A stretch of 53,979 nt of DNA from the NCBI GenBank assembly GCA_022842285.1, contig JALHPV010000007.1, forward strand, positions 1 to 53,979, written 5' to 3'. Both the position numbers and the translations under genes were made by a program. This document shows, in pieces, positions 4,136-10,534 of this stretch (the stretch's first letter is position 1; each line of letters starts with the position of its first letter). Origin of the DNA: Kofleriaceae bacterium (lineage in GTDB: Bacteria; Myxococcota_A; Polyangia; Haliangiales; Haliangiaceae). Below the pieces are notes generated by a model that saw only the letters and a program-made list of their open reading frames with translations, did no database searches and was not told the DNA's origin.

Positions 4136-5140
4136 ATGGTGATCGGCGAGCCGGCAGTCCTGCGACGCGTGGGCGCGATCACGATGATCGTCCTCCTGCT
4201 CGCCATTGCCTTCGTCGCCCTCGTCCTCCCTCGCATCGAGTGGCACGCGATGGTCCGCATCCAGGTCGCCCTCCGCGAGACTGCGGGCCTACGCGAAGGT
4301 GCCCCCCTTGTCGTGGCCGGCCGTCCTGTCGGCTCCGTCGAGACCATCGCCCTCACTCGCGACGGCGTCGTCGTCACCGTGGCCCTCCCTGCCAACACGG
4401 CCGCCCGCATCCCACGGGGCGGCGACATCTTCGTGGCCTCCAAGGGCCCCTTCTCGGCCCGCTATCTCGAGGTGGGCGCCGCCCCCGACACCTCCCACGG
4501 CACCCTCGCCGATGGTGACCGCATCACCGGCATCACCCCGCCCAGCCTCGATCGCGTGCTCCAGCGCACCTGGGACAACCTGACCACCGCCCGCGCGTTT
4601 GCCGACACCATCAAGCCCGAGGTCGCCGCCCTCGGCACCGCCCTCACCACCCTCGGCTCCACCCTCGACACCCTCGACCCTGCCGCCACCCTCGACCTCA
4701 AGCTCCAGCTCCTCGCCTTCGTCGCCGAGGCCCGCGCCCTCTACACCGACACTCTCGGCGGTGCCGACGGCGTCGCCCGCCTCCGCGCACTCCTCGCCCG
4801 CGGCCGCACCGTCCTCACCACCACCAAGGCGCGCATCGCCGAGCTCCGCATCGCCGCCGCCGCGCTGAGCGCCGACGTCGACGCCGCCCGCACCCGCTTC
4901 GGCGACCGCGCCACCACTGCCCTCGCCAAGATCGAAGCCACCATCGCCACCATCGAGTCCACCATCGACCAGCTCGATCCGATCCTCGCGACCATCGCCG
5001 ACATCCGCGGCCGCATCTCGCGAGGCGAGGGCTCGCTGGGCCGCATCATGACCGACCCCGAGTTCCCCGAGGATGCGAAAGAGCTGGGCAAGATCATGAA
5101 GCGCCAGCCATGGCGGATCATCCAAAAGCCCGCGCCTTGA
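4136..5140 (+). CDS. MlaD-family MCE-domain lipid-transport protein 2
   Basis: 334 aa, a diverged paralogue of the preceding gene. It has an N-terminal anchor (about 13-33, AITMIVLLLAIAFVALVLP), an MCE domain (about 40-125, with LREGAPLVVAGRPVGSVETI) and a long Ala/Thr/Leu-rich helical stretch. It ends in GEGSLGRIM and MKRQPWRII, matching the GKGTAGALI/KRNPWKLF ending of its neighbour. The 4-nt intergenic gap means co-translation. Two different MCE proteins together with two different permeases and two different ATPases suggest mixed (hetero-oligomeric) complexes. Codon choice is extremely C-rich at third positions. Confidence 0.88.
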   Translation: MVIGEPAVLRRVGAITMIVLLLAIAFVALVLPRIEWHAMVRIQVALRETAGLREGAPLVVAGRPVGSVETIALTRDGVVVTVALPANTAARIPRGGDIFVASKGPFSARYLEVGAAPDTSHGTLADGDRITGITPPSLDRVLQRTWDNLTTARAFADTIKPEVAALGTALTTLGSTLDTLDPAATLDLKLQLLAFVAEARALYTDTLGGADGVARLRALLARGRTVLTTTKARIAELRIAAAALSADVDAARTRFGDRATTALAKIEATIATIESTIDQLDPILATIADIRGRISRGEGSLGRIMTDPEFPEDAKELGKIMKRQPWRIIQKPAP

Positions 5141-5221
5141 CCTCTCCGGGGGAGAGGTGAAACCGGAAAGTCGCAGTCCGGCGTCCGGCCGCCATTCGGA
5201 CGCGGTGTCCGGTCACCGGAC
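5140..5221 (+). repeat. REP-like palindrome cluster upstream of the RAYT gene
   Basis: Begins with a perfect 8-bp inverted repeat ACCTCTCC-GGG-GGAGAGGT (5140-5158) containing the 14-mer CTCCGGGGGAGAGG (5144-5157). AAAGTCGC follows at 5167-5174. It ends with GTCCGGT-C-ACCGGAC (5207-5221), a 7-bp stem. The 14-mer recurs at 6330-6343 (inverted) and 10460-10473. The remainder of the gap to the RAYT start (5222-5292) shows nothing else. Confidence 0.75.
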
Positions 5222-5292
5222 GGACCCTGTCGTAAACGACCGGAATCACAGCGTGCTCGCCACGGCGTTGGGCATGCAGTGCCACGCACGTC

Positions 5293-6192
5293 GTGACCCT
5301 TCCGCGTCCTGTCTACCCAGGCACCGTCTGCATGGTGACGCGAAGCTGCACCCAGCAGCAGTTCTTGCTGCGTCCGGATCCGGAGACGAACAACGCCTTC
5401 ATCTACTGCCTCGCCGTCGCAGCCGAGCGGCACGGGGTCACGGTCCTCGACTTCATTCAGATGTCGAATCATCTCCACGGTGTGGTTCACGATCGCTATG
5501 GCAACCTCCCCGAGTTCACGCGCGACTTCCACAGCCTGCTAGCCAAGTGCATCAACTGCATCCGGCGTAGGTCCCAGAACGTCTTCACGACCGACCAGGT
5601 GAGTGTGGTCGTTCTCGAGGACTCGAAAGCGATCGTCGACAAGCTCTGCTACGTGGCGACGAACGCCGTGAAAGACCACCTCGTCGAGACATGTGCCAAG
5701 TGGCCGGGTGCATGTGGCCATCGTGCGCTTGTCGAAGGTCGCACGCTGCGAGCTACGCGCCCCAAGCACTTCTTCGATTCCGATGGCGAGATGCCTGCCA
5801 CTGTTTCCCTGACGCCCACGATTCCGAACGAGCTTGGCGATCCGCAGGAGATCCTCAGCGAGGTCGTGCGCAGAGTGGAGCAGTTCGAACGTGAAGCTGC
5901 TCGTGAGCGCGCGGCCTCTGGCCGCAAGGTCCTGGGCCGGTACGCCGTCCTTCGCCAGTCATGGCGTGATTCGCCAACAAGTCGCCTCCCGCGTCGGGGA
6001 CTCCGACCTACGTTCGCAGGGCGTCTGTGGGCTCGGATCGAGGCCGCGCAGAGGAAACGGGCCTTCGTCAGATCCTATTGCCTTGCCCGCGCGGCATTCC
6101 TCGCGGGAGCTCCGATCCCGTTCCCCGCGGGCACGTACTGGATGCATCGGTACGTCGGGGCCCCTGTAGAGCCAAACGAAAACTCGAACTAG
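5293..6192 (+). CDS. REP-associated tyrosine transposase (RAYT / Y1_Tnp, IS200-like)
   Basis: 299 aa. The HUH nuclease motif is MSNHLHGVV with His60-x-His62. The expected catalytic tyrosine is Tyr120 in LCYVATNAVKDHL, the counterpart of the 'YVxxNPV' box of RAYT proteins. These enzymes nick single-stranded DNA at REP hairpins and are usually domesticated single-copy genes rather than active insertion sequences. The C-terminal 130 residues are basic and of unknown role. Palindromes on both sides share a 14-bp core with a third site about 4 kb away, as expected of a RAYT with its own REP family. The gene separates the two halves of the lipid-transport locus. The first codon is uncertain; a GTG a few codons downstream is also possible. 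Confidence 0.82.
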   Translation: MTLPRPVYPGTVCMVTRSCTQQQFLLRPDPETNNAFIYCLAVAAERHGVTVLDFIQMSNHLHGVVHDRYGNLPEFTRDFHSLLAKCINCIRRRSQNVFTTDQVSVVVLEDSKAIVDKLCYVATNAVKDHLVETCAKWPGACGHRALVEGRTLRATRPKHFFDSDGEMPATVSLTPTIPNELGDPQEILSEVVRRVEQFEREAARERAASGRKVLGRYAVLRQSWRDSPTSRLPRRGLRPTFAGRLWARIEAAQRKRAFVRSYCLARAAFLAGAPIPFPAGTYWMHRYVGAPVEPNENSN

Positions 6193-6219
6193 CCGTACTT
6201 CATGCGTGCGCGCGGTCGA

Positions 6220-6261
6220 ACGCCGCGCGCCGTCGCGGCGTGGTTGATCGCCGACGGCGAT
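6220..6261. repeat. two perfect hairpins downstream of the RAYT gene
   Basis: ACGCCGCG-(6 nt)-CGCGGCGT at 6220-6241 is an 8-bp stem. ATCGCCG-A-CGGCGAT at 6247-6261 is a 7-bp stem. Neither has a T tract, so they look like REP/BIME-type hairpins rather than terminators. Confidence 0.6.
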
Positions 6262-6329
6262 TGGGGAGGATAGCCACTACAGCCGGGGCGAGGGACCGTG
6301 CCAGCAGACGCGTTCGCATGCCAGACGAA

Positions 6330-6343
6330 CCTCTCCCCCGGAG
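6330..6343 (-). repeat. REP core, inverted copy of the 14-mer at 5144
   Basis: The exact reverse complement of CTCCGGGGGAGAGG, 14 nt upstream of the stop codon position of the minus-strand ATPase gene. With the 5144 copy it brackets the RAYT gene in inverted orientation. Confidence 0.7.
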
Positions 6344-6356
6344 GGGCGGGGCTGGG

Positions 6357-7118
6357 CTAGAACCCCGGCGTCTCCATCGGCCCGGTCGACAAGCCGCCAA
6401 TGAACTGCTGCACCACCGGGTCGGGAGAGGCTCGCAGTGCCGCTGGTGATGCGAGTGCGTGGACCTTGCCCTGGTAGAGGAATGCGATGCGGTCGGCGAT
6501 GCCGAAGATGGATGGCAGGTCGTGCGAGACGACAATGCAGGTGACCTTGGACCTGTCGGCGAGCTCGCGGATGAGGCGGTCGATACGACGAGCGCTGACG
6601 GGGTCGAGGCCCGTGGTGGGCTCGTCGAAGAGCACGACATCGGGGTCGAGGGTCAGGGTGCGGGCGATGGCGGCGCGCTTGCGCATGCCGTCGGAGAGGT
6701 CGGCGGGATAGCGGTCGGCGTAGTCGGCCATGTAGACCTGGGCGAGGCGCTCACGTGCAGATACGAGGGCCGCTTTCTGGGAGAGGCGGTGGTGCTTGCG
6801 GAGGGGCAGGGCCACGTTCTCGGCAAGGGTCATGGAGTCGAAGAGCGTCGAGGACTGGAAAACCATGCCGACGCGTTTGCGGATCGGAGCGAGGGCGGAC
6901 TCGGGGAGGTGGTCGACCCGGCTGCCGTCGAAGTAGATCTCGCCGGCGTCGGCGCGGAGCAGGCCGACGAGGAGCTTGATCGTGACGGACTTGCCGACGC
7001 CCGAGGTGCCGATGATGAACATGACCTCGCCGCGGGTGACCGCGAGGTCCATGCCGCGGAGGACGGGGGCGGCGCCGAAGGACTTCGTGATGCCGCGCCA
7101 CTCGACGAAGGCGGTCAT
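6357..7118 (-). CDS. MlaF-type ABC transporter ATPase, ATPase 2 (LSDGM signature)
   Basis: 253 aa. Walker A is canonical, GTSGVGKS (residues 37-44). The Q-loop is MVFQSS. Walker B is VVLFDEP with the catalytic Glu present, and the switch His is intact (VVSHD, His199). The signature is LSDGM (141-145) instead of the usual LSGGM, so the second Gly that contacts ATP gamma-phosphate across the dimer interface is an Asp. It is the last gene of a minus-strand operon and overlaps the permease stop by 4 nt. Together with the 8661-9422 ATPase it probably forms a heterodimer powering phospholipid transport. The MlaF family assignment rests on length, the GM(x)KR signature and the permease neighbours. 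Confidence 0.92.
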
Positions 7119-9422: not shown

Positions 9423-10534
9423 GGCTGCTCGAACCGCGCGAGGTACTTCGAGTCGGGCTCGTCGCGCTGGAGTTGCGCACGCACGGCGCAGGCGCCCGTT
9501 GCATCGCCGGCCGCGGCGAGCGTCAGCGCGAGCTCGTAGAGCGCGTCGTCTTTCAGGATCGACGCCGGGTAGTCCTTCGGCAACTTGCGGAAGGCCTCGC
9601 TGGCGCCGTCGAGGTCATGAAGCTCGTCACGCAGGACCCGCCCTAGCTCGAGCTGGGCATCGTCGAGCCAGATCGAGAAGTAGCTGCCGGCACCGAACGC
9701 GACCTCTCGCGTCTTGGTAAGTGCGCGCAGGCGTTCGACGGCGCCTCGGGCATCTCCGAGCTCGCGCGACACCCGTGCGGCATGCCAGCGGGCATCGTCG
9801 CGCAATCCGCTCTTGGGGTACTCGACCGGGATGCGGTCGTAGAAGGAACGCGCACTGCCGAGGTTCTCGAGCTCGTGCTCGGCGAGGTCGGCGAGCGTCC
9901 ACACCAGATTGTCGGCGACACCCGTCTGTGCCAGCGGCGTCAGCACCGACTGCACCTGGTCGAACAGGGCGCGCGCATCGCGGCCACGACCGTCCTCGAG
10001 CAAGCGGCGCAGGGCATCGGCTGCCGGGGCCTCGTCGGGGTAGTCAGTCACGGTGCGCCACAGCGCGGTCCACGCGGCCTCGGTCGCGCCCGCGCGCAGC
10101 TGGAGCTCGCCAGCGCGATAGCTGGCCGTCGCCGCCGTGGCCGGATCATCGACCACACGACTGGGGATGGCGAGATAGACGCTGATCGCCTCGGCGGCCC
10201 GATCCGCTCGCTCGAGCACTTCGCCTTCGCCGAGCAGCGCGTCGGCGCATGCGATGAACGCGCGGCGCGGGGGCTTCAGCGTGTGACAGGTGCGTTGAGC
10301 TTCGCGATACGCCGCCACGGCGCCCGTGAAGTCGCCCGCGTCGGCCTTTCGTTCGGCGTCGACGAGGGCGGGCAGCGTCGCGTTGCCGGAGCAGGCGAGG
10401 AGTGCACACGCGAACGCGGCACGGAATATGCCCGCGTGCGCCCGGCCGGACAGCGAACCCTCCGGGGGAGAGGGGAGGCGTGCAAAGTCGCGGCGTTGCG
10501 CCGATCGGCTGACTTTCGAATCTCGGACAGTCAC
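9413..10534 (-). CDS. TPR-repeat lipoprotein encoded in the lipid-transport operon
   Basis: 373 aa from a GTG at 10534 that overlaps the threonine aldolase stop (GTGA). The lipoprotein signal [12 protein letters not shown] lies at about residues 38-50, preceded by an unusual 37-residue hydrophilic leader. Downstream of the GTG there is no ATG, GTG or TTG in frame before the signal, so only a CTG could give a normal-length signal peptide. The body is helical TPR-like repeats (for example [42 protein letters not shown]). A REP-like palindrome lies inside the leader. It is likely anchored in the periplasm, where it might scaffold the MCE complex; that role is inferred from operon position only. 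Confidence 0.78.
10460..10491 (+). repeat. REP element copy inside the 5' coding region of the TPR lipoprotein
   Basis: The exact 14-mer CTCCGGGGGAGAGG (10460-10473) is followed by AAAGTCGC at 10484-10491, the same two blocks with nearly the same spacing (24 versus 23 nt) as at 5144-5174. It is the third copy of the RAYT-linked element. Confidence 0.7.

Follow-up and report, generated by a model that had tools for sequence, protein, structure and literature searches.

A RAYT-type transposase gene and its terminal inverted repeats in a Kofleriaceae genome: a probable TIRtron-like transposon

Positions 5141–6346 of the window, the stretch of 53,979 nucleotides of Kofleriaceae DNA analysed here, probably constitute an inserted TIRtron-like transposon, in which the 14-mer CTCCGGGGGAGAGG supplies the outer inverted repeats; a further copy of the 14-mer, outside this unit, most likely marks an end-bearing fragment. 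Within the unit an HUH/Y1 transposase gene is framed by hairpins at the left end, one at the right end, and the outer inverted pair. The initial annotation of the region described a RAYT flanked by its own REP family, a description that is partly supported: the RAYT and its own flanking inverted repeats stand, but 'REP family' is better given up in favour of terminal inverted repeats belonging to a TIRtron-like transposon.

Transposase gene

The transposase is encoded on the forward strand at 5293–6192 as a protein of 299 aa with a GTG start codon, and is assigned to the RAYT-type (TIRYT-like) HUH/Y1 enzymes by profile, alignment and structure comparison. The window protein matches the NCBIfam model NF047646 (REP-associated tyrosine transposase) with an E-value of 2e-9, a match that lies below the curated cut-off, and all 50 of the 50 aligned family members, the window protein included, match this model at E ≤ 0.01. 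A Pfam search with the window transposase returned no match, and Pfam Y1_Tnp matches weakly in 8 of 34 relatives. The alignment places the catalytic residues at H60-L-H62, Tyr120 and Asn124. H60, H62, Y120 and N124 are invariant across the aligned family, so that both the HUH motif and the catalytic tyrosine are present, while P125 of the Y---NP context, found in at least 90% of the family, is Ala in the window protein.

The AlphaFold model of the protein (pLDDT 92) superimposes on E. coli TnpAREP (4er8) with a Z-score of 15.0 and an rmsd of 2.6 over 153 aligned residues. IS608 and ISDra2 form the next family, with Z-scores of 8.4–9.9, and Foldseek is consistent with TnpAREP as the closest structure. 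The model also predicts C-terminal helices at residues 184–209, 245–270 and 282–288; no HTH family profile was matched by the window protein or its relatives. Judged from the predicted fold, which is that of a RAYT, the gene is a RAYT/TnpAREP (class 2 TnpA-Y1), and the earlier identification of an HUH-tyrosine (RAYT) gene is upheld by the NF047646 match, the invariant residues and the similarity to 4er8.

Distribution of the 14-mer

The 14-mer occurs at 5144–5157 (+, copy 1), 6330–6343 (−, copy 2) and 10460–10473 (+, copy 3) with no further exact match in the window, which agrees in positions and strands with the three occurrences first described, and copies 1 and 2 do bracket the RAYT gene. 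A second block that had been reported beside two of the copies is likewise found: measured from the start of the 14-mer, AAAGTCGC is 23 nt away in copy 1 and 24 nt away in copy 3, and a genome-wide count of the two motifs together gives only these two sites, both in the window. Across the 7.9 Mb genome (550 contigs) the 14-mer has three copies, all in the window and all inside 5.3 kb (reversed control 0), and among 55 related genomes there is one copy in each of two. The 17-mer end repeat, allowing up to 2 mismatches, is found at 11 places genome-wide, the three window sites included. The 14-mer observation is real, given its rarity elsewhere and the inverted placement of two copies around the transposase.

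A true REPtron, in which the 14-mer would be the cognate REP of the window RAYT and would be beginning to spread, is an unlikely explanation. It would account for the inverted copies that flank the RAYT, for a third copy in extra DNA 4 kb away and for the folding of copy 1 as a hairpin. Against it, folding of the single strands is better than in shuffled sequence for copy 1 alone (z −1.8; copies 2 and 3, z +1.1 and +0.9), and the GT[AG]G foot is absent from both strands at all three copies. The other end repeat of the same genome, ACCGGGGTTGATTT, has 14 near-exact matches, and these are not dispersed: most adjoin a RAYT gene or a derivative without one. A genome-wide REP family is ruled out by the count of three copies. 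Because of this count, the missing foot and the folding of copy 1 alone, the REP/BIME population proposed in the initial annotation is not supported.

Element layout and insertion site

The left neighbour of the element is an mlaD-like gene (MCE protein; 4136–5140, forward strand), identified from its open reading frame and from the position of mlaD beside mlaF in relatives. The left terminal inverted repeat, CCTCTCCGGGGGAGAGG (5141–5157, +), contains copy 1 of the 14-mer and lies directly 3' of the mlaD stop. Within it is GGGGAGAG, which conforms to GGGGWSAS and has its complement in the right repeat. The AAAGTCGC block common to copy 3 follows at 5167–5174 (+), and then the left end proper (5176–5222, +), which starts with GTCCGG and continues with tandem GTCCG...CGGAC hairpins at 5181–5203 and 5207–5221. 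A degenerate sigma54-like motif, TTGGGCATGCAGTGCC, with a spacing of 9 occupies 5268–5283 (+). Beyond the transposase gene, alignment and folding define a right end (6208–6243, +) made up of a stem of variable sequence (6208–6230) and the core CGTCGCGGCGTGG (6231–6243). The right terminal inverted repeat, CCCCTCCGGGGGAGAGG (6330–6346, −), contains copy 2 and lies near the stop of the right neighbour, an mlaF-like ATPase gene (6357–7118, −) identified from its reading frame and synteny. The extra hairpins noted previously are present; those at 5207–5221 and 6247–6261 are perfect, and that at 6220–6241 has 8-nt arms and a 6-nt loop.

Where the gene order is the same, in the three relatives G003, G004 and G005, the stops of mlaD and mlaF are separated by 0–50 bp, and neither a RAYT nor the 14-mer is present, whereas the window has 1.2 kb between these genes, holding the RAYT and both inverted 14-mers. 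The junction accepts inserts, since other relatives carry unrelated genes or sequence there. The comparison was made with distant relatives (mlaD ~40–50% protein identity). Neither a target duplication nor a precise empty site could be demonstrated.

The proximity of the repeats to the two genes is also compatible with a different arrangement, in which the outer repeats would be a host terminator-like palindrome at a convergent mlaD/mlaF target and the transposon ends would lie inside it, from 5176 to ~6245. Copies 1 and 2 are located 0 and 10 bp beyond the mlaD and mlaF stop codons, and the multicopy element of the relative G019 described below starts at GTCCGG. However, relatives without the insertion also lack the palindrome, the family has inverted outer repeats in other genomic contexts, and a third 14-mer copy exists elsewhere, which together make this arrangement improbable. 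The left palindrome may act as a terminator; no T-run follows it.

Homologous elements in Myxococcota

About 95 homologues in Kofleriaceae and other Myxococcota share parts of this layout, with 10 full or partial matches in the window's own genome and 30 in one relative. In G019, six copies share 89–97% identity, and copies that are 95–97% identical occupy several sites. Their common left boundary is exact and falls at GTCCGG, and on the right they end at a CCCCGG-type repeat; their left flanks have no tetranucleotide in common. To judge from such sequences, some family members are recently mobile.

The two GTCCG...CGGAC hairpins of the left end are conserved family-wide in two alignments of upstream regions (59 and 42 sequences), and the aligned left ends give no sign of AAAGTCGC as a family-wide block. 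The right end is likewise recognisable across the family as a stem of varying sequence followed by the near-constant core, although 12 of 59 main-family copies have no recognisable core. RNAalifold recovered only 3 pairs from the right-end alignment, in which MAFFT had scattered the variable stem, and an anchored pairing test was used instead. By this test 7–8 of the 8 positions are paired in 40 of 47 stems, compared with 46% of arm-swapped controls.

Outside these ends lie the outer repeats. CCGGGGTT occurs 73 times upstream (complement 11, reversed controls 1) and is present in 28 of 95 copies, and AACCCCGG occurs 56 times downstream (complement 6, reversed controls 0–1) and is present in 32 of 95. 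Inverted pairs scoring at least 13 were found in 21 of 66 copies, where the 95th percentile of the controls is 12 and the window pair scores 15. At the outer-repeat position of the family the window has its 14-mer, whose sequence differs from the CCGGGGTT type and represents a diverged form of it. In most genomes the 10-mer ACCGGGGTTG exceeds its reversed control by a modest margin only.

Chance alone, that is, a GC-rich 14-mer recurring three times, is highly improbable: although the 15 matches at 3 mismatches in the window are no excess over the 16 expected, and third-order Markov versions of the window each hold about 2 three-copy 14-mers, contrary to the earlier argument that three copies in 54 kb are very unlikely by chance, this reading is ruled out by the genome counts (two copies in 55 other genomes against three within 5.3 kb) and contradicted by a family comparison in which inverted outer repeats regularly surround the transposase, as two copies do here. 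The real window holds 35 three-copy 14-mers, mostly coding repeats. A gene at 658–2634 with many short tandem repeats (QQPGYPP/NPYGQQP type) accounts for most of the repeated 14-mers in the window.

Derivatives, partial copies and the third 14-mer

The window's own genome also contains a RAYT-less element of ~150 bp in three copies that are 90–91% identical, at L117 1380–1650, L119 1493–1645 (G000:C489) and L271 ~1506–1633 (G000:C295). These elements are MITE-like, and at least one copy is bordered on both sides by inverted outer repeats of the CCGGGGTT type.

Partial copies lie outside both ends of many family elements, with the terminal repeat kept and the inner truncation point varying. At L057, for example, a 5'-truncated copy is followed by pieces of ~30 and ~11 nt. 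Tandem partial copies were seen downstream at L057, L058, L075 and L054 and upstream at L142, L121 and L070. One automatic measure, some of whose matches are simple tandem repeats, finds terminal-repeat units in 55 of 171 flanks; the corresponding counts are 50 of 1500 for random anchors and 1 of 99 for distal flanks. Units of at least 20 nt are found in 32 of 171 flanks (random anchors 4 of 1500, distal flanks 0 of 99), and at least two unit lengths occur together in 17 single flanks and in none of the controls. The pattern suggests that a freed element end often primes copying of its own terminus, which would generate the partial copies.

Copy 3 lies with AAAGTCGC in extra DNA at 10451–10530 (+), at the junction of an aldolase-like and a lipoprotein-like gene. 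These two genes abut or overlap in seven relatives, whereas the window has ~80 bp extra. The interior of this DNA resembles the RAYT-less element weakly (score 29, p ~0.008, a level reached by 0.8% of random stretches), and a BLAST search with 101 bp around copy 3 found no second copy. Its interpretation as a clear derivative was dropped on these two results. Copy 3 is probably a stray, degenerate, non-autonomous fragment that bears an end and that most likely landed at this second intergenic junction. In the same interval (10451–10534) the lipoprotein frame stays open from a GTG that overlaps the aldolase stop, and the signal peptide of the lipoprotein-like protein may be preceded by extra N-terminal residues.

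Sigma54-like motif

Sigma54 promoters have the consensus YTGGCAC-N5-TTGCW with GG-N10-GC spacing. In 53 of 73 main-family copies a motif of the form YTGGCA-N6-TTGCW (GG-N10-GC) ends 12–17 nt ahead of the start codon, compared with 2.2% of random anchors, and motif scores of at least 10 are reached by 62% of 94 copies and by 0–2% of controls. The window copy has an N9 spacing and fails GG-N10-GC, and by its sequence may be weak or dead. In distant members (e.g. L232, L251 and L256) the motif takes the form GGCAC-N5-GTGCC. A plain hairpin is the less likely explanation, and the sigma54 reading is tentatively preferred because main-family members vary at the positions that would be paired. Some caution attaches to this reading, since transcription would start ~12 nt downstream and yield a nearly leaderless mRNA. 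No account of a RAYT under sigma54 control turned up in a limited literature search. If GG-N10-GC is a sigma54 promoter, transposition in myxobacteria would be tied to stress or developmental regulation.

Discussion

In TIRtrons, terminal inverted repeats border a RAYT-type gene, and many have the motif GGGGWSAS (PMC3733652); most TIRYTs have been placed in subclass 2.1 of TnpAREP, without REP-like hairpins (PMC6006769). The window element resembles these systems in its RAYT-type HUH/Y1 gene of ~300 aa with a C-terminal extension, in flanking inverted repeats unrelated to GTAG REPs, and in terminal repeats that differ between copies of one genome. It also has GGGGWSAS within its repeat, where most relatives have the CCGGGGTT type instead. 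By their flanking position and this motif, the window repeats fit terminal inverted repeats of the TIRtron type. Unlike TIRtrons, the Myxococcota family has conserved hairpin ends, multicopy members that appear to have moved recently, derivatives lacking the RAYT, partial copies that keep the terminal repeat, and the sigma54-like motif; a limited literature search found no report of these distinguishing features. Two of them look new, namely the sigma54-like motif and the partial copies, which are anchored on the terminal repeat and found beyond both ends.

REPtrons (PMC2817692, PMC6006769) share the transposase fold and the flanking inverted repeats, but the window system has neither a high-copy dispersed REP nor the GT[AG]G foot. 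According to PMC6006769, REPtrons do not move as units, whereas some members of the Myxococcota family appear to do so. IS200/IS605 elements (IS608, ISDra2) have the HUH/Y1 fold, subterminal hairpins and multicopy mobility in common with this family; the window protein differs in being a larger RAYT-type enzyme closer to TnpAREP, and the element in having outer inverted repeats and no defined guide tetranucleotide.

By analogy with the biochemistry of IS200/IS605 and TnpAREP, the transposase would recognise the end hairpins on single-stranded DNA, cleave close to the outer repeats by way of a phosphotyrosine at Tyr120, and move the unit together with short derivatives that retain the ends. The main uncertainty in the reading of 5141–6346 as a TIRtron-like transposon is whether the left outer repeat moves with the element. 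It may not, because the mobile segment of G019 starts at GTCCGG, inside that repeat.

A broader proposal, tentative and somewhat short of probable, is that Myxococcota harbour autonomous, non-domesticated RAYT transposons in which the transposase is driven by sigma54 and freed ends prime partial copying of themselves. RAYTs are usually described as single-copy and vertically inherited, and their link to the spread of repeats has been deduced indirectly. The recent movement seen in this family, ends that can be compared over ~95 copies, and the partial copies and derivatives offer a way to test how transposon ends turn into dispersed repeats. If the broader proposal is true, movement would be tied to an enhancer-binding protein, and the ends would leave behind arrays of fragments anchored on the terminal repeat as well as small derivatives, and REP-like repeats could arise directly from the ends of a transposon.
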